Shown here: piece by piece, positions 2,322 through 9,702 of the stretch | How the letters are laid out: the number at the start of each line of letters is the position of its first letter | Numbering within the stretch: position 1 is the stretch's first letter | Source: Nesterenkonia sandarakina | GTDB taxonomy: Bacteria > Actinomycetota > Actinomycetes > Actinomycetales > Micrococcaceae | Direction: 5' to 3' | Length of the DNA: 64,000 nt | Assembly (NCBI RefSeq): GCF_013410215.1 | Contig: NZ_JACCFQ010000001.1 | Coordinates: forward strand, 744,001 to 808,000 | Program-made: the position numbers and the translations under genes | The notes under the pieces: model-generated | What the model was told of the DNA's origin: nothing | The model's database searches: none | What the model saw: only the letters and a program-made list of their open reading frames with translations

Positions 2322-3440
2322 ATGGGACGGGTGATCCCTCTCTTCCTCGACTGTGACCCCGGCATCGATGATGCACTCGCGCTGGGCTGGCTGTTCTGCC
2401 AGGACGACGTCGAGATCACCGGCATCGCGGCGAGCGGCGGCAACGTCTCCACCGCCCAGGTGCTGACGAACACGCTGGGCTGGCTGCAGCTGGCCGGGCG
2501 CACCGACCTGTGTGTGCACGCAGGGGCAGAGCACCCGCTGGCCGGAGTCAGCGAGTACGCCGAGGAGACCCACGGCGACACCGGCGCCGGCTATGCCCAG
2601 CTGCCTGTCGGTGGGATCGCCGGCGGATTCACCGCCGATGCGCTTCCCGCCGCGCAGGCCTGGGTCCGGGCGGCCCACGCTCATCCGGGTGAGCTGCTCG
2701 GAGTGCTCACCGGACCGGCCACCAACCTGGCCCTGGCACTTCAGCTGGAGCCCCGGCTCCCGCAGCTGCTCAAGCGGCTCTTCATCATGGGCGGGGCCTT
2801 CAACTACCGGGGCAACACCCGGCCCACCACCGAGTGGAACATCAGCTATGACCCGGAGGCCGCGAAGGGCGTGCTCGACGCCTTCGGTGCCGCAGCCCGG
2901 CTGCCGGTGATCGGCCCGATCGAGGCCACCGAGGCGGTGGCGCTGACCCCTGATCTGCTGGCGAGAATGCTCGAAGGTCCCTGCTCCGCGCAGTGGTCAG
3001 CCTTTCTGGAGCAGCTGGCCGAGGCGCTGCGGTTCTACTTCGAGTTCCATGAGAGCGATGGCCACGGCTACCTCGCCCATGTCCACGACCCCTATGTCAC
3101 GGCCGCCGCCGTTCTCTGGGCGCGAAACCAGGCTCAGCACCAGCCGCAGACCCCCGTCCGGCGCCATCAGGAGAGCCCCTCCCCCACGGCGAAGGCTGAC
3201 CCAGATTCGTCCGCACCTCCCGCAGACGGGATAATTCCCTGGGCGCGCAAGACCGAGCAGGCAGCGGTCGACGTCGAGCTCATCGGCTCCCTGACCCGTG
3301 GCGAGACCGTGGCCGATTGGCTGGGCCGCTGGGGCCGTGCGCCGAATGCGGAGATCATCCGCAGCCTGGACGCCGAGGCGTTCCTGGATCACCTCACCAC
3401 CACCTTGAGAAGAGGACCACAACACCATGACTCACACTGA
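2322..3440 (+). CDS. Inosine/uridine-preferring nucleoside hydrolase family protein
   Basis: Cleaves the N-glycosidic bond of ribonucleosides to base plus ribose. Near the N-terminus it carries the family signature DCDPGIDDALAL, the Asp cluster that binds Ca2+ and the ribose. FIMGGAFNYRGN and the TEWNISYDPEAA segment are further conserved active-site regions. The protein is 372 residues, longer than the usual 310-320, because of a Pro/Gln/Ser-rich insert around residues 270-310 (HQPQTPVRRHQESPSPT) between HDPYVTAAAV and the final domain. ATG 2322 was chosen because the motif begins about ten residues later; a further ATG lies in frame at 2274. The stop overlaps the next gene by 14 bases, which couples it to an ECF transporter and suggests that imported nucleosides are hydrolysed on entry. 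Confidence 0.88.
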   Translation: MGRVIPLFLDCDPGIDDALALGWLFCQDDVEITGIAASGGNVSTAQVLTNTLGWLQLAGRTDLCVHAGAEHPLAGVSEYAEETHGDTGAGYAQLPVGGIAGGFTADALPAAQAWVRAAHAHPGELLGVLTGPATNLALALQLEPRLPQLLKRLFIMGGAFNYRGNTRPTTEWNISYDPEAAKGVLDAFGAAARLPVIGPIEATEAVALTPDLLARMLEGPCSAQWSAFLEQLAEALRFYFEFHESDGHGYLAHVHDPYVTAAAVLWARNQAQHQPQTPVRRHQESPSPTAKADPDSSAPPADGIIPWARKTEQAAVDVELIGSLTRGETVADWLGRWGRAPNAEIIRSLDAEAFLDHLTTTLRRGPQHHDSH

Positions 3441-4386
3441 CCCGCACTCTGGGCAGGGGTCCGTCACCGCGGCGGATCCCGGAGAAACCCCGAAGACGCA
3501 CCCGCAGCAGACCCGCACTCCTAAAGCTCGCACCGCCAAGACTCGCGACACCGACCGCGCGGGCAACCAGCTCCGCCCCGCTCCCCCGCTGTGGTCGACT
3601 CTGGCGCTCACCGCCGGCGCCGCCGTCATCCTGGGCACCTATCTCTGGGTGCTGACCAGCCAGCCCGCCACCCTCGGCGCCGACCTGGGCCACACCACGC
3701 TCGGCGTGATGGTCGGCTACCTGCTGGGCGCCGCGCTGATCGCAGCCGGCACGCTGCCGCGGATCCCGCGCAGCGTGCTCGCCCTGATGCCGGTGATGAT
3801 CGCGCTGAACATCGCCACCGGCCAGATCGTGGGCACCATGACCCCGATCCCGCTCTACCTGGATTCCCTGGGCACCGTAGTCATCGGCGTCATCGCCGGC
3901 CCCGCCGCCGGAGCGCTGACCGGAATCCTGACCAATGTCATCTGGGGCGTGACGATCAACCCCACCGTCATCGCCTTCACCGCCGGCTCCGCCTTCATCG
4001 GCGCCGCCGCCGGCTGGGCCGCCCGGCTCGGCGGCTTCCGCCGCATCTGGTGGGCCGTGATCGCCGGAGCCCTGGCGGGGATCCCCACCGGCCTGATCGC
4101 CACCCCGGTGGCCGCCTTCATCTACGGCGGAGGTCTCGGCGTGGGCACCGGGAGCCTCGTCGCCGCCCTGCAGGGGGCCGGTGCCTCGATGCTGGGTGCT
4201 GCCACCATCCAGGGGCTGGGCAGCGACGTGGCCGATAAGGCGATCATCTTCGCTCTGGCCTTCCTGGTGCTCGCCGCGCTGCCGAACCGGCTGCGCAGCC
4301 GATTCCCGTTCACCGAACACTCCCGGGTGAGGCGCCGGAACCGGACAGACGCGGGACCTGCGCATGCGGCTGCATCCGGCCACTGA
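3427..4386 (+). CDS. ECF transporter S component (membrane substrate-binding subunit)
   Basis: Integral membrane protein of 319 residues. A polar, Thr/Pro/Lys-rich cytoplasmic N-terminus of about 55 residues precedes roughly six hydrophobic segments. The segments LYLDSLGTVVIGVIAGPAAG and GILTNVIWGVTINPTVIAF are typical of ECF S components, which capture the substrate and pair with the T subunit through small-residue helices. It overlaps the nucleoside hydrolase by 14 bases and the T component by 23, so translation is probably coupled. Substrate is inferred to be a nucleoside from the first gene of the operon; a thiamine-precursor substrate cannot be excluded from sequence. Confidence 0.82.
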   Translation: MTHTDPHSGQGSVTAADPGETPKTHPQQTRTPKARTAKTRDTDRAGNQLRPAPPLWSTLALTAGAAVILGTYLWVLTSQPATLGADLGHTTLGVMVGYLLGAALIAAGTLPRIPRSVLALMPVMIALNIATGQIVGTMTPIPLYLDSLGTVVIGVIAGPAAGALTGILTNVIWGVTINPTVIAFTAGSAFIGAAAGWAARLGGFRRIWWAVIAGALAGIPTGLIATPVAAFIYGGGLGVGTGSLVAALQGAGASMLGAATIQGLGSDVADKAIIFALAFLVLAALPNRLRSRFPFTEHSRVRRRNRTDAGPAHAAASGH

Positions 4387-5146
4387 GCTGGTCCTGCTCG
4401 GCTGTGCGCTGCTGCTCGTCTACGGGGTTCCCTCCCCGCTGATCCCGGCCGCCGTGCTTCTATGCGCGGTGGCCGGGGCGGCGGCCTCCCCACGAGTCCG
4501 CTTTCGCAGCTGGGCGCTGACCCTGGTGGTGCTCGCCGGACCCATGCTGGTCATGGTCGGGATCATCCAGGGACTGTTCTATCCCGGCGAGCAGGCCCAG
4601 GTCCTCGCCGAGTTCGGGCCCGCCGCGGTCACCGTGGAGGGCCTCGCGCTGGCGATCCAGCTCTGGCTGCGTGTTGCCGCGATGGTCGCGGTGTGCGCAC
4701 TTTTCGCCTTCGGCTCGGATCCCTCGCGCGCCTTCGACGGGATGCTCACGCTGCGCCTTCCGCTGTCCCTGGCCTATGTCTGCGCCGCCGCGATGAGTCT
4801 GATCCCGCTGGCGCGGCACCGAATCTGGGCGGCGCTCACCGCCCGCTCGGCACGCGGCTGGGACACCGACAGATTCCTGGTGCGGCTGCGCCTGCTCCCC
4901 GGAGTGCTTGCCGGCCTGCTGATCACCGCCATCACCCAGCTGGACCAGCGCCATGACGCGCTGACCCAGCGCGGGTTCGGCCTGACCCCGCGCCCCACCC
5001 CTGCCCGGTTCTATCCCGCAGGGCCCGGTCAGCGCGGGCTGCGCTGGGGCGCCGTCCTCGGGTCCTGTCTTCTCGTGGGCGCCTCCCTGGCCGGGCTGCT
5101 CCCGCTGCCCTCGGCCACCGACCTGCTCGGAGTCCTAGATGTCTGA
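4364..5146 (+). CDS. ECF transporter T component (EcfT/CbiQ family transmembrane coupling protein)
   Basis: Transmembrane subunit of 260 residues linking the S component to the ATPases. Several hydrophobic helices are followed by the cytoplasmic coupling region, where TARSARGWDTDRFL and TQRGFGLTPRPT correspond to the two X-R-X motifs (Ala/Ser-Arg-Ser/Gly) that dock into the ATPase grooves. It overlaps the S gene by 23 bases upstream and the ATPase gene by 8 downstream. EcfT assignment is firm from the coupling motifs and the gene order. Confidence 0.85.
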   Translation: MRLHPATELVLLGCALLLVYGVPSPLIPAAVLLCAVAGAAASPRVRFRSWALTLVVLAGPMLVMVGIIQGLFYPGEQAQVLAEFGPAAVTVEGLALAIQLWLRVAAMVAVCALFAFGSDPSRAFDGMLTLRLPLSLAYVCAAAMSLIPLARHRIWAALTARSARGWDTDRFLVRLRLLPGVLAGLLITAITQLDQRHDALTQRGFGLTPRPTPARFYPAGPGQRGLRWGAVLGSCLLVGASLAGLLPLPSATDLLGVLDV

Positions 5147-6875
5147 TCCCACGATGTCTGATCCCTCGACGCCCGATTCCAGGACGCCCCCGCCCGCAGT
5201 CGTGCCCTCGGGGTGTTCCCCGCTGCTGCGTCTGACTGACTTCGGATTCACGTACCGCGGCGCCGAGACCCCGGCCCTGCAGAGCGTGGACCTGGTGCTG
5301 CGCCCCGGTGACGCCGTGGCGGTGCTCGGCCCGCAGGGCGCGGGCACCTCCACCCTGGCCCGCGCCGCCGCAGGGCTGCTGGGTGAACATGGGCAGAGCA
5401 CCGGGGTGCGTGAGGTGGCCAAGGACCGCGTGGGCATGCTCGGCGATGACCCGGAGGCCCAGCTCACCGGCCTGACCGGCACCGTCGAAGACGAGGCCGC
5501 ACTGCCGGGGCGGCTCCTCGGGCTGCCGCTGAAGGACTGCCTGGAGCGTGCCGAAGCCAGCCTGCAGGCGCTGGGCATCGCCGCCCTGGCGCAGCGTCAG
5601 CTAACCACGCTCTCCGGCGGGGAGCGCCAGCTCACCGCGCTGGCCGGGCTGCTCACCCTGCGGCCCAGCGTGCTGGTCCTCGATCAGCCCTCACAGGCCC
5701 TGGACGCGGGCGCACGACGGCGACTGGCCCGGTCCCTGCGCGCGTTCCGGGATGCCGGGGGCGCGGTGCTGCTCACCGGACATCAGCACGATGATCTCAC
5801 CGCGGACTGTGACCGGGTGCTGTTCCTGGACCAGAGCCGACCGGCCACTGATGCAAAGGAGGAGCGCTCAGCACCGGACCGCGTCACCGAGCAGCCTGGT
5901 CAGGGGGAGCCAGCGCAGCCTGACCTGGCGGAGCCAGACCAGCCGGATCAGGCGTCGGGGAGGCCTGACCAGCGACCCCAGGATGAGCTGCGGCTGGACC
6001 CCGCGCGGCTTGATCGGCATGGGATCTGGGATGTCCGGCGCGCACCCTCCCGCCCCGCTCCGCAGCCCGCCCCGACCACGCAGCCCGCCCCATCACGGCA
6101 GTCCGCCCCAGCCCGGCACCCCGAAGCAGCATCCAATCCTGCCCCGGAGCCCAGCCGCGATGCGGCAACCGGCCGCAACACAGACGTGCAGCTGCACGTG
6201 CAAGGACTCTCGGTCACCCGAGGTGACCGCCCGGTGCTCCAGGACCTCGGGCTGGAGCTGCGCGCCGGGGAGGTCACCGCCCTGCTGGGCGCCAATGGCT
6301 CCGGGAAGTCCACGCTGCTCGGCGCCCTGGCCGGACTGCTGCCCGTGGCGCCGGGGGCCCAGATCACCGGGCCGCGCGGCGTCGAGCTCGCGGGGACCCC
6401 GGCGCATGTCCGGGCCGCTCATCTGGCCTGGGTGGGCCAGGACCCCGGGGACCAGCTCTCCGCCTCCACGGTGCGCGCGGAGCTGCTGCGTGCGGCACCG
6501 CTGGGCCCCGGCGGGCGTCGGCTGCGCCGGGCGGATCGTCAGCGCGCCCGGGCTCAGCGAGAACTAGCCGTGGACCACGTGCTGCAGACCGCGGGACTCA
6601 CCGACCACGCGCAGGAGCACCCCTATGATCTGGTGCCCGCCCAGCGCAAGGATTGTGTGATCGCCTCGGCGCTGCTGCTGGGGCCTGCGGTGCTGCTGCT
6701 GGACGAGCCCACGCTGGGCCGGGATGCGGCCGGGATGGATCGGCTGAGCACCCTGGTCCGCGGATTCACCGCGGCGGGGGGCGCGGTCTTGGTGGCCACC
6801 CATGATCAGCGCTGGGCGGCGGAGATCAGCGAGCATCAGCTGCGCCTGGACGGAGCAGACTCACCTTCGCAGTGA
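5139..6875 (+). CDS. ECF transporter fused ATPase A-A' with one degenerate nucleotide site
   Basis: Two ABC ATPase domains in one chain of 578 residues, joined by a Pro/Gln/Asp-rich linker (about residues 225-345). Domain 1: the Walker A is GPQGAGTST, with Thr70 where Lys is expected; the signature LSGGERQ (158-164) is intact; the Walker B ends LVLDQPS with Gln183 in place of the catalytic Glu; and the Q-loop reads GDDPEAQ. Domain 2: the Walker A GANGSGKST (Lys390) and Walker B LLLDEPT (Glu523) are intact, but the signature is LVPAQRK (498-504) instead of LSGGQ. In an ABC dimer each site pairs the Walker motifs of one domain with the signature of the other. One site is therefore complete and the other lacks all its key residues. 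It powers the ECF transporter encoded just upstream. Confidence 0.9.
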   Translation: MSDPTMSDPSTPDSRTPPPAVVPSGCSPLLRLTDFGFTYRGAETPALQSVDLVLRPGDAVAVLGPQGAGTSTLARAAAGLLGEHGQSTGVREVAKDRVGMLGDDPEAQLTGLTGTVEDEAALPGRLLGLPLKDCLERAEASLQALGIAALAQRQLTTLSGGERQLTALAGLLTLRPSVLVLDQPSQALDAGARRRLARSLRAFRDAGGAVLLTGHQHDDLTADCDRVLFLDQSRPATDAKEERSAPDRVTEQPGQGEPAQPDLAEPDQPDQASGRPDQRPQDELRLDPARLDRHGIWDVRRAPSRPAPQPAPTTQPAPSRQSAPARHPEAASNPAPEPSRDAATGRNTDVQLHVQGLSVTRGDRPVLQDLGLELRAGEVTALLGANGSGKSTLLGALAGLLPVAPGAQITGPRGVELAGTPAHVRAAHLAWVGQDPGDQLSASTVRAELLRAAPLGPGGRRLRRADRQRARAQRELAVDHVLQTAGLTDHAQEHPYDLVPAQRKDCVIASALLLGPAVLLLDEPTLGRDAAGMDRLSTLVRGFTAAGGAVLVATHDQRWAAEISEHQLRLDGADSPSQ

Positions 6876-6950: not shown

Positions 6951-7562
6951 CTAGAGCGGCAGCGACTCCCAGGTGTCCACGATGGCGGGCACCACCGAGG
7001 CCACCAGCAGTCCGGCCATGACCAGGTTGAAGATCAGCATGTGCTTCGGCTGGGAGATCACCTTGCCGGCGCCGACCCCGAGCAGGGTCCAGGCCACGGT
7101 GAAGGGGGCGCCGAAGGTGCAGGCCACGAGCGCGATCACGGCGACCTCGAGCATGAAGGAGTCCCAGAAGCCGGTGAAGGCGCTCAGCGCCGCCACCGAG
7201 AGGGTCCAGGCCTTCGGGTTCACGAACTGGAAGAGCGCCATCTGCACGAATCCCGGCGGGGTGGCTCCGGGCTTGGGGGTCAGCGTGGTGGGGCCGTTGG
7301 CGATCTTGAACGCGAGCCAGAGCAGATACAGGATCCCGATCGGACGCAGGATGTCGAGGATCACCGGCCACTGCTCCAGTGCCTGGCCCAGACCGATTCC
7401 CACCAGCAGCACCATGGTCGGGAAGCCGACGTTGACTCCCAGGATCGCCGGCAGCGTGCGCTTGAAGCCATAGGCGGCTCCGGAGGCCATCACGATGGTG
7501 TTGTTAGGTCCCGGGGTGCCCGCGCCGGCCACCACGAAGAGCATCAGAGAGAGAATCGCCAC
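6951..7562 (-). CDS. LysE family amino-acid/metabolite exporter
   Basis: Membrane protein of 203 residues with about six hydrophobic segments. The N-terminal signature GTPGPNNTIVMASGAAYG matches the LysE/RhtB pattern PGPN(x) followed by a glycine-rich helix, and FVNPKAWTL is the second conserved motif (NPK). It begins with GTG and follows the TetR gene after 9 bases, so it is the last gene of an MFS-TetR-LysE operon. The substrate cannot be read from the sequence; efflux of an amino acid or a toxic analogue is the family expectation. Confidence 0.85.
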   Translation of the reverse strand: MAILSLMLFVVAGAGTPGPNNTIVMASGAAYGFKRTLPAILGVNVGFPTMVLLVGIGLGQALEQWPVILDILRPIGILYLLWLAFKIANGPTTLTPKPGATPPGFVQMALFQFVNPKAWTLSVAALSAFTGFWDSFMLEVAVIALVACTFGAPFTVAWTLLGVGAGKVISQPKHMLIFNLVMAGLLVASVVPAIVDTWESLPL

Positions 7563-7571
7563 TGGTCGAGA

Positions 7572-8144
7572 CTACTCTGCCGGTACGGTCGCGTTCTGCG
7601 CGAGCGCGATGATCTCCTCGGTGACTCGTTCCCGCAGCCGGGGGTCCAGCCGTTCGGTGGAGAGCGCCTCGTAGAACCACAGTCCGTCGGCGGCGAGCCG
7701 CGCGATGAAGCGCTGGACCGCGGCGGCTTCCGCGGCGTCGTCGTCGGAAGCCTGCGCCGTCTCGGGGGGCTGCGGGGCCCAACGGGCGAAGATCTCATCC
7801 CAGGCGGCGTTGGCCACCGGGTCCTCGGATGCCTCGAGCATCAGCAGCAACTCCGCGCGCTCCGGGTTCTGCGAGAGCCGCACGAAGGCGCGGAAGCGTT
7901 CGTCCCGGTTCAGCTGGGCCGCGGTGCCGCCGGCCTCTGCCTCCAGCGCCAGCTCCCAGTTCTCCGCCACGTGCCGGTGCAGCCCGAGCAGCAGCTCCTC
8001 CCGGGACGGAAAGTGATACAGCAGCCCGCCCTTGGTCATTCCCGCCTCGGCGGCCACGGATTCATAGGTCAGGGTGGTCACGCCTTCGCGCTGGACCACA
8101 CGGGTGGCGGCGTCGAGGATCTCGCGGCGTTTGGAGGGTCGCAC
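7572..8144 (-). CDS. TetR/AcrR family transcriptional repressor
   Basis: 190 residues. The N-terminal helix-turn-helix is typical: RREILDAATRVVQREG, then YESVAAEAGMTKGGLLYHFP. The C-terminal ligand domain is not assigned to a ligand. It sits 16 bases after the MFS exporter, so it probably autoregulates as part of the efflux operon. The likely operator is the 11-bp-arm palindrome lying on the promoter in front of the MFS gene. A drug-responsive derepressor is inferred from this arrangement. Confidence 0.88.
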   Translation of the reverse strand: MRPSKRREILDAATRVVQREGVTTLTYESVAAEAGMTKGGLLYHFPSREELLLGLHRHVAENWELALEAEAGGTAAQLNRDERFRAFVRLSQNPERAELLLMLEASEDPVANAAWDEIFARWAPQPPETAQASDDDAAEAAAVQRFIARLAADGLWFYEALSTERLDPRLRERVTEEIIALAQNATVPAE

Positions 8145-8160
8145 AGGGGTTCGTCTCCGC

Positions 8161-9702
8161 TCAGTGGTTCTCGGGGTAGGCCTGGGACTCGGTGCCCGGA
8201 GTGTAGCGGCGCAGCATCCAGGAGGAGGCGACGGCGGCGAGCACCATCACCACCGCCACACCGATCAGCACGCCCAGGTAGGCGATGTCGAAGGCCTCCG
8301 CAGCCGCGGCCATCGCCGGGGCGTCCCCGGATTCCAGCACCGCGGCGGGCGCCTGAGAAGCGTATTCCTCGGAGCCGGCGGGCAGCACCAGCACCCGGGT
8401 GTAGACGAAGGTGAGCAGGCTGCCCAGCAGCGCCACCCCGACCAGTCCGCCGAACTCGTAGGAGACCTCCTCGATGGAGGCCGCCATGCCGGCCCGGCGC
8501 GGGGGAACATTGCCCATGATCGCGGTGGAGGCCACCGACATCGAGGCACCCAGCCCGGCGCCGAGCACGCAGAAGCTGATCACCAGCAGCACCAGAGAAT
8601 CCTCCAGGGTGGCGTAGATCGAGCCCAGCGCGCCCACTGCGGCCAGCGCCATGCCGCCGCCGATCAGCGTGAGCAGTCCGGCGCGGTGCAGGATCGCGCC
8701 GCCGAAGAGTGCGAAGGGCATCGAGCCCACGGCGAGGGCGGAGACGATCAGGCCGGCGTCCAGCGGGGAGAAGCCCTCGACCAGCTGGAAGCGCTGGGTG
8801 GTGCCCAGCTGGACCCCGACGATCGCGAAGATGCTGGCGCCGGCGGCGATGACTCCGCCGCTGAACCCGCGGTTGCGGAAGATCGTGAAGTCCACCAGAG
8901 GCTCGGCGGTGCGGGTGAGTCGCATCTGACGCCGGGCGAAGACGGTGAGCATGACGACGGCGACCACCACGGAGACCACGAAGCGCACCCAGTCCACCGG
9001 GGTCTCGGCGATGGTCTTGATCGCCAGCACGGCGGCGGTGAGCCCGATCATCACCTGGGCCGAGGACAGCCAGTCCCAGCGGCGGCCCGGGCTGGCGATG
9101 TTGGCCGGGCCGACCACCAGCATCAGGACCAGGGCGGCGACCACGATGGGCACGTTGACCAGGAACACCGAGCCCCACCAGAAGAACTCCAGCAGCACCC
9201 CGGAGACGATCGGGCCCAGCGCCATGCCCACGGTGGCCACTGCGGCCCAGATGGCGATGGCCATATTGCGCTCGCGCTCCACGGAGAAGGTCAGCCGGAT
9301 CAGCGCCAGGGTGGCGGGCATCATGGCGGCCGCGCCCACGGCCAGCAGGGCCCGGGAGGCGATGAGCATCTCGGAGCTGGGTGAGAAGGCTGCCAGGATC
9401 GAGGCGACACCGAAGATGCCCAGGCCGACCTGGAAGATCCGTTTGTGACCGAACCGGTCCCCCAGCGCGCCGGAGCCCGGCAGCAAGCCGGCGATCACCA
9501 GCGGATAGGCGTTGATGATCCACAGCTGCTGGGAGGAGGAGGCGCCGAGCTCCGCGGTCAGCGTGGGCAGGGCGGTGTAGAGGATCGTGTTGTCCAGGGC
9601 GATCAGCAGCAGCGCCGAGGAGACGATGGCGAGCATGGTCCAGCGCTGCCACGCGCTGAGGGCGGGCCGGGCGTCGGCGCGCACAGAAGGAAGGGTCATC
9701 AC
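8161..9702 (-). CDS. MFS multidrug exporter, DHA2 (14-TM) family
   Basis: 513 residues with about 14 hydrophobic helices, the length and layout of DHA2 drug:H+ antiporters. The segment DNTILYTALPTLTAELGASS in the first helix region corresponds to motif D1 of this family (LDxTIVNVALP), and GALGDRFGHKRIF is motif A. The start is GTG 9702 followed at once by ATG. There is no Shine-Dalgarno, and a -10 hexamer TATAGT ends 7 bases upstream of the GTG, so the mRNA is probably leaderless. It is the first gene of the MFS-TetR-LysE operon. Confidence 0.9.
   Translation of the reverse strand: MMTLPSVRADARPALSAWQRWTMLAIVSSALLLIALDNTILYTALPTLTAELGASSSQQLWIINAYPLVIAGLLPGSGALGDRFGHKRIFQVGLGIFGVASILAAFSPSSEMLIASRALLAVGAAAMMPATLALIRLTFSVERERNMAIAIWAAVATVGMALGPIVSGVLLEFFWWGSVFLVNVPIVVAALVLMLVVGPANIASPGRRWDWLSSAQVMIGLTAAVLAIKTIAETPVDWVRFVVSVVVAVVMLTVFARRQMRLTRTAEPLVDFTIFRNRGFSGGVIAAGASIFAIVGVQLGTTQRFQLVEGFSPLDAGLIVSALAVGSMPFALFGGAILHRAGLLTLIGGGMALAAVGALGSIYATLEDSLVLLVISFCVLGAGLGASMSVASTAIMGNVPPRRAGMAASIEEVSYEFGGLVGVALLGSLLTFVYTRVLVLPAGSEEYASQAPAAVLESGDAPAMAAAAEAFDIAYLGVLIGVAVVMVLAAVASSWMLRRYTPGTESQAYPENH

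Follow-up and report, generated by a model that had tools for sequence, protein, structure and literature searches.

A fused ATPase with one canonical and one degenerate ATP site in an ECF importer operon of Nesterenkonia and its relatives

The fused two-domain ATPase of an ECF importer operon in Nesterenkonia combines one canonical with one degenerate composite ATP site. It probably drives a dedicated (group I-like) ECF importer by hydrolysis of ATP at one site alone. The operon was analyzed in a window of 64,000 nucleotides from a Nesterenkonia genome, to which all positions refer unless another contig is named. Site I is formed by Walker A and Walker B of the first ATPase domain (D1) and the signature of the second (D2) and is degenerate. 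Site II is formed by Walker A and Walker B of D2 and the LSGGE signature of D1 and is canonical. In pairing a degenerate composite site with an intact opposite site, the protein matches the degenerate-site ABC proteins.

The operon and the motifs of its ATPase

The genes are arranged in the order nucleoside hydrolase, S, T and A, with the ATPase gene last (Table 1). Adjacent reading frames overlap. The frame of the nucleoside hydrolase opens at a TTG (2274) and the ATG at 2322 is the likely start. The S component is related to the CD3073 family (NF045596) but scores below the curated cut-off (98 vs 180 bits) and is not assigned to it. The fused ATPase is likewise below the NCBIfam cut-offs (ECF_ATPase_1, 179.5 vs 315 bits; ECF_ATPase_2, 164 vs 330 bits). 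Both X-Arg-Gly coupling motifs of EcfT (ARG and QRG) are conserved. Neither a riboswitch nor a promoter or terminator consensus was found at the operon. Its gene order is kept among relatives, and nearly every related operon has a nucleoside hydrolase homologue next to its ECF genes. The upstream flank (1122-2174) holds a divergent gene for an iron-type binding protein and the downstream flank (6951-9702) LysE, TetR and MFS efflux genes; close relatives within Nesterenkonia are the only ones in which these flanks accompany the operon.

An S gene beside the motor, an EcfT/CbiQ protein with two X-Arg-X motifs and two ATPase domains with Q-helices identify the system as an ECF (type III) importer. 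Two canonical ATP sites, a usual though not strictly defining property of this class, are not present since site I is degenerate. The membrane parts are encoded by separate genes, whereas in PDR/ABCG transporters the membrane domains belong to the ATPase chain.

The motifs of D1 read, in order, GPQGAGTST, LGDDPEAQ, LSGGE, VLVLDQPS and TGHQ, those of D2 GANGSGKST, VGQDPGDQ, LVPAQRKD, VLLLDEPT and ATHD. The Q-helices are DPEAQ in D1 and DPGDQ in D2. A preliminary description of this DNA had named Thr70, Gln183 and LSGGE (residues 158-162) in D1 and Lys390, Glu523 and LVPAQ (498-502) in D2, all of which proved exact on re-reading. Its division into one intact and one degenerate site also holds. 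Its statement that the degenerate site lacks every key residue does not, as D1 retains His215, the Walker B Asp182, the Gly/Ser71/Thr72 frame of the P-loop and an aromatic residue, Tyr39, near the A-loop. The replacement of the D1 Q-loop Gln by Asp103 was absent from that description. The linker between the domains differs in length among homologues.

Table 1. Genes of the operon and motifs of the fused ATPase (window positions)
Feature	Position	Strand	Basis or remark
IU-type nucleoside hydrolase, first operon gene	2322..3440	+	Pfam IU_nuc_hydro, E=4e-75
ECF S component (substrate binder)	3427..4386	+	NF045596, E=4e-28, 98 bits
ECF T component (EcfT/CbiQ)	4364..5146	+	Pfam CbiQ (PF02361), E=2e-14
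Fused two-domain ECF ATPase (EcfA-A), 578 aa	5139..6875	+	Pfam ABC_tran, matched twice
D1 Walker A GPQGAGTST, Lys replaced by Thr70 (5346-5348); site I, degenerate	5328..5354	+	motif reading
D1 Q-loop with Asp103 instead of Gln (site I, degenerate), followed by the Q-helix DPEAQ, which is intact (T coupling kept)	5445..5462	+	
D1 signature LSGGE; site II, canonical	5610..5624	+	
D1 Walker B VLVLDQ, catalytic Glu replaced by Gln183 (5685-5687); site I, degenerate	5670..5687	+	
D1 H-loop His215, kept in site I	5781..5783	+	
Variable, proline-rich, low-confidence linker between the ATPase domains	5859..6182	+	low pLDDT at residues 242-278 and 308-345
D2 Walker A GANGSGKST with Lys390; site II, canonical	6288..6314	+	
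D2 Q-loop Gln434; site II, canonical	6438..6440	+	
LVPAQ in place of the D2 signature, with invariant RKD after it; site I, degenerate	6630..6653	+	
D2 Walker B LLLDEP, containing Glu523 of the canonical site II; D-loop TLGRD, containing Arg528	6690..6722	+	
D2 H-loop His555; site II, canonical	6801..6803	+	

Conservation and polarity of the losses

A search of 30 Nesterenkonia genomes gave matches at E<=1e-60 in 11, the genome of the window counted. Further carriers of the operon in the genus were found by a later search (G025) and by a scan of genome contigs (L115 of N. cremea). All 12 proteins of the genus that were examined carry the degenerate pattern; in N. cremea, Ile takes the place of Thr70. 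The pattern is also present in Brevibacterium, Leucobacter, Pseudoclavibacter, Sediminivirga and Helcobacillus, and the 43 real loci of the contig scan are confined to these five genera and Nesterenkonia. One of the scan patterns, LGDDPEAQ, spans the Q-loop change and thus biases this set to the degenerate form. In an alignment of 24 proteins Gln183, Ser71, Thr72, Arg503, Lys504, Asp505, Lys390, Glu523 and Arg528 are invariant or nearly so and Thr70 exceeds 90%. Synonymous codons vary (ACC, ACG, ACT or ACA for Thr70; CAG or CAA for Gln183). Median dN/dS values are similar for both domains (Nesterenkonia, 0.27 for D1 and 0.24 for D2; two Brevibacterium sets, 0.22-0.25). Chance or sequencing error was rejected as a source of the pattern because it recurs in 12 proteins of the genus and in five other genera, with varied synonymous codons and dN/dS of 0.22-0.27.

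Decaying genes classically lose catalytic residues, and in a few relatives (L116, L117, L121 and L124) the P-loop glycines are lost as well. The operon might accordingly be decaying, with D1 drifting to a pseudogene and the transporter weak or dead. Conservation is strongly opposed to this: 57 proteins from six genera share substitutions of one kind (Thr, Gln, Asp) while their synonymous codons differ, D1 and D2 have equal dN/dS (0.22-0.27 for D1), site II is untouched and the operon order is kept. Decay is therefore very unlikely.

For the comparison of the two sites, 84 motors were compiled from operons reached via the S component or the ATPase; some genomes are counted twice under two locus ids, and removal of identical proteins leaves 74. 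The counts exclude L083, L086 and L087, which have no credible neighbouring ECF ATPase, and the non-ECF loci L136-L140. Site II is preserved throughout, with the D2 Lys, Gln, Glu and His each present in 84/84 motors and the SGG of the D1 signature in 83/84. In site I the canonical state is kept in 0/84 motors at the D2 signature, in 23/84 at the D1 Lys, 22/84 at the Gln, 26/84 at the Glu and 70/84 at the His. The preliminary description would have been refuted by random or absent losses in homologues that share the operon. Neither was observed: the D2 signature is lost in 84/84 motors and the D1 Lys in 61/84, the D2 Lys, Gln, Glu and His in 0/84. A less biased set, the window included, comprises 41 scorable motors from a search of the order and the phylum by S component. 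In this set the D2 signature is non-canonical in 41/41 and the D1 Lys is lost in 18/41. Two Brevibacterium proteins (L119 and L125) have a D1 Walker B DEP within the DQP clade, an apparent return to Glu, with the Lys still lost.

A tree was calculated from D1 and D2 without the motif columns (88 rows, YkoD type as outgroup). It parts this ATPase type from YkoD with support of 100/99; some inner branches are weakly supported. By parsimony, site I requires a minimum of three changes for the D1 Lys, four each for the Gln, Glu and His and one for the D2 signature (at least 16 changes), and site II 0, 0, 0, 0 and 1, the last in the D1 signature of L057. A sign test of 16 vs 1 changes gives about 0.0003 (calculated by hand; the events are not fully independent). 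The change of the D2 signature falls between this type and YkoD, and the loss of the D1 Lys is nested within the type and repeated. On the tree, the D2 signature was lost first and D1 Walker A and B afterwards, about three times. Graded relatives, in which the signature only, then the H-loop and then Walker A and B are affected, suggest the same order of site loss. There are two separate cases. In L088, Lys is replaced by Thr together with a Glu to Asp exchange, and its placement among Lys-bearing relatives is strongly supported. L054 and L057 form a pair without a P-loop, and their long branches make the placement of this pair uncertain.

Other ECF ATPases served as controls. YkoED-type systems likewise have a fused two-domain ATPase, but unlike in the window protein both of its sites are canonical. 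This applies to a second fused ECF ATPase of the same genome (L141, YkoE-linked), which is located at G000:C1:1308000-1311100 with a YkoE-type S component and an 845-aa frame that fuses two canonical ATPase domains with EcfT. Among 36 YkoD-type fused ATPases of the same order, L141 included, site I is canonical in 36/36 at all residues and site II in 34-36/36, with three isolated deviations in total. Together with the defects of single E->Q mutants (PMC10368641), these paralogues bear out the view that two active sites are usual in ECF motors. The asymmetry has milder forms elsewhere. In a wider sample of ECF modules reached via EcfT across the phylum, 15 paired modules have an EH-type D1 (hand count); among these the D2 signature is altered in 13/15, a D1 His or Glu is lost in 4/15 and a D2 catalytic residue in 0/15. 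These modules drift on the same side, and the direction of the asymmetry is thus wider than this operon; the window protein is its extreme end. Other ECF motors of the phylum with same-side losses are L208 (GAHASGRAV, partner signature LTGDE), L240 (D1 Glu replaced by Ser) and L230, L244 and L245 (D1 H-loop His replaced by Gln).

In the EcfT-based sample as a whole, one of the signatures often shows mild drift (LSxG), with LSCG and LSLG as forms of D2. Signature drift alone need not abolish activity, and both sites of the window protein could be active if its variant motifs still allow hydrolysis, as LSxG seemingly does in other ECF ATPases. In site I, however, the signature Ser and both Gly, the Walker A Lys, the Q-loop Gln and the catalytic Glu are missing together, and E->Q mutants of the studied ECF motor have no ATPase activity (PMC10368641). 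Hydrolysis at both sites is highly improbable.

Predicted domain pairing and the proposed roles of the two sites

The AlphaFold2 model of the window protein has a mean pLDDT of 82.7 and a pTM of 0.73 and contains a disordered linker. For a Brevibacterium homologue with a short linker these values are 92.3 and 0.90. Of all PDB entries, the fused DppD dimer of M. tuberculosis in its ATP-bound form matches both domains jointly best (TM 0.80); the other DppD entries matched reach TM 0.67-0.68, the apo and substrate-bound forms 0.68. The best fit to the ATP-bound fused protein supports a head-to-tail pairing of D1 and D2 inside one chain in the predicted structure. The head-to-tail sharing of sites assumed in the preliminary description agrees with this model, and the composite-site reading of the fused ATPase is supported. 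It would be wrong if the domains paired between chains (D1:D1 and D2:D2). No support for such pairing was found. A D2:D2 dimer would have two sites with broken signatures and a D1:D1 dimer two sites without Lys and Glu, so that no working site would result, and the structure prediction pairs D1 with D2. Pairing between chains is extremely improbable.

In the proposed mechanism, a D1:D2 head-to-tail dimer would form within one chain. Site II, with Walker A and B and the Q- and H-loops of D2 and the LSGGE of D1, would bind and hydrolyze ATP as the sole hydrolytic site. Site I (Thr70, Asp103 and Gln183 with LVPAQ) would be incapable of hydrolysis and would either hold a nucleotide passively or be purely structural. 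D1 would act as a pseudo-ATPase which provides the signature of site II and whose Q-helix groove receives one of the two EcfT coupling helices with X-Arg-Gly motifs. Binding of ATP at site II would close the dimer, push the coupling helices outward and expel the S component, as described for group II. Hydrolysis of one ATP would reopen the dimer, so that a single ATP may be spent per cycle.

The group II complex EcfA-EcfA'-EcfT (L. delbrueckii ECF-FolT2/CbrT) has the same S-T-A-A architecture, Q-helix and X-Arg-X coupling. There, important motifs are present in both ATPase subunits (PMC4820897) and both catalytic Glu residues are needed (PMC10368641), one of which is naturally Gln in the protein described here. 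Single exchanges, EcfA E169Q or EcfA' E171Q, cause severe growth defects, and the mutant motors show neither ATPase activity above background nor transport (PMC10368641). Since these single mutants are defective, the mechanism here must differ from that of group II. The presence of the D1 Walker B Glu in L119 and L125 despite the loss of Lys counts against a one-site motor. In addition, the aromatic residue of the A-loop region (Tyr39, 5253-5255) is kept in D1 and mostly replaced, often by Val, in D2 of the clade, in a region where the alignment is approximate. Its loss in D2 and retention in D1 are odd if only D2 binds ATP.

The likeness to asymmetric ABC exporters proposed in the preliminary description does not extend to exporters in general; the nearest precedents are Pdr5 and RbsA/NupO. 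In the yeast PDR exporter Pdr5, as here, the Walker A Lys, the Walker B Glu and the opposing signature are replaced at one site, the other site is canonical and the degenerate catalytic half comes first. Unlike the system described here, Pdr5 is an exporter with its own membrane domains and belongs to an unrelated subfamily. ATP is bound in its deviant site (PMC8421411), and a symmetrised Pdr5 has no activity (PMC7756269, PMC8421411). RbsA and NupO, of the ribose and nucleoside importers of B. subtilis, are fused ATPases with one degenerate site that lacks the Walker A Lys (PMC11466899). They serve type II importers with a binding protein and carry the degenerate Walker A in the second domain, unlike the window protein, in which it belongs to D1. 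A literature search, with most subscription journals outside its coverage, found no ECF case of a degenerate or asymmetric ATP site.

Site I might also have been rebuilt as a non-hydrolytic nucleotide sensor, in which Arg528 (with RKD) would replace Lys70 in trans and Tyr39 would stack on the base. This is compatible with site II as the only hydrolytic site. The D-loop Arg (T-x-G-R-D; Arg528, 6720-6722) is present in 57/61 Lys-less proteins and in 0/20 scored Lys-bearing proteins, and in trans Arg528 may extend as far as site I. Most D1s have an aromatic residue in the Tyr39 column, and Ser71 and Thr72 of D1, Gln183 and RKD are invariant or nearly so. In Pdr5 the deviant site binds ATP despite the replacement of Lys by Cys (PMC7756269, PMC8421411). 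Arg528, however, occurs only in the T70/Q183 clade and arose once with it, which reduces its tie to the Lys loss to a single event; moreover, four Lys-less relatives, all from lineages outside the main clade, do without it. A sensor at site I is therefore rather unlikely.

Probable substrate and significance

The linked nucleoside hydrolase indicates that the substrate is probably a nucleoside or a base. A nucleoside hydrolase combined with an ECF system resembles known parts of queuosine salvage (review PMC11130926). In the genome of the window TGT was found and QueA was not; a genome with TGT and without QueA would need queuine salvage. TGT is present in 13/13 operon-bearing Nesterenkonia genomes, N. 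cremea among them, and the operon was detected in 0/8 Nesterenkonia genomes that lack TGT. The probability of this association within the genus by chance is about 0.004 (calculated by hand, uncorrected for kinship). Import of queuosine or queuine by the operon is possible and is regarded as a lead, not a result. The loci concerned are 2322-4386 of the window and G000:C1:2773423-2774586.

More speculatively, and with a good deal of doubt, a branch of the ECF importers may have come to rely on a single hydrolytic site by a repeatable, one-directional route, with the D2 signature lost first and D1 Walker A and B later, several times, and site I, no longer hydrolytic, may have been rebuilt into a conserved site for a nucleotide or for regulation in which the D-loop Arg acts in trans.

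The finding bears on whether ECF importers need two ATP hydrolysis events per cycle. A Walker B mutation that is defective in the model system, together with the loss of the Lys and the Gln, is the normal state of a whole clade. The clade represents a natural experiment and allows a direct test of one-ATP operation in an ECF importer.
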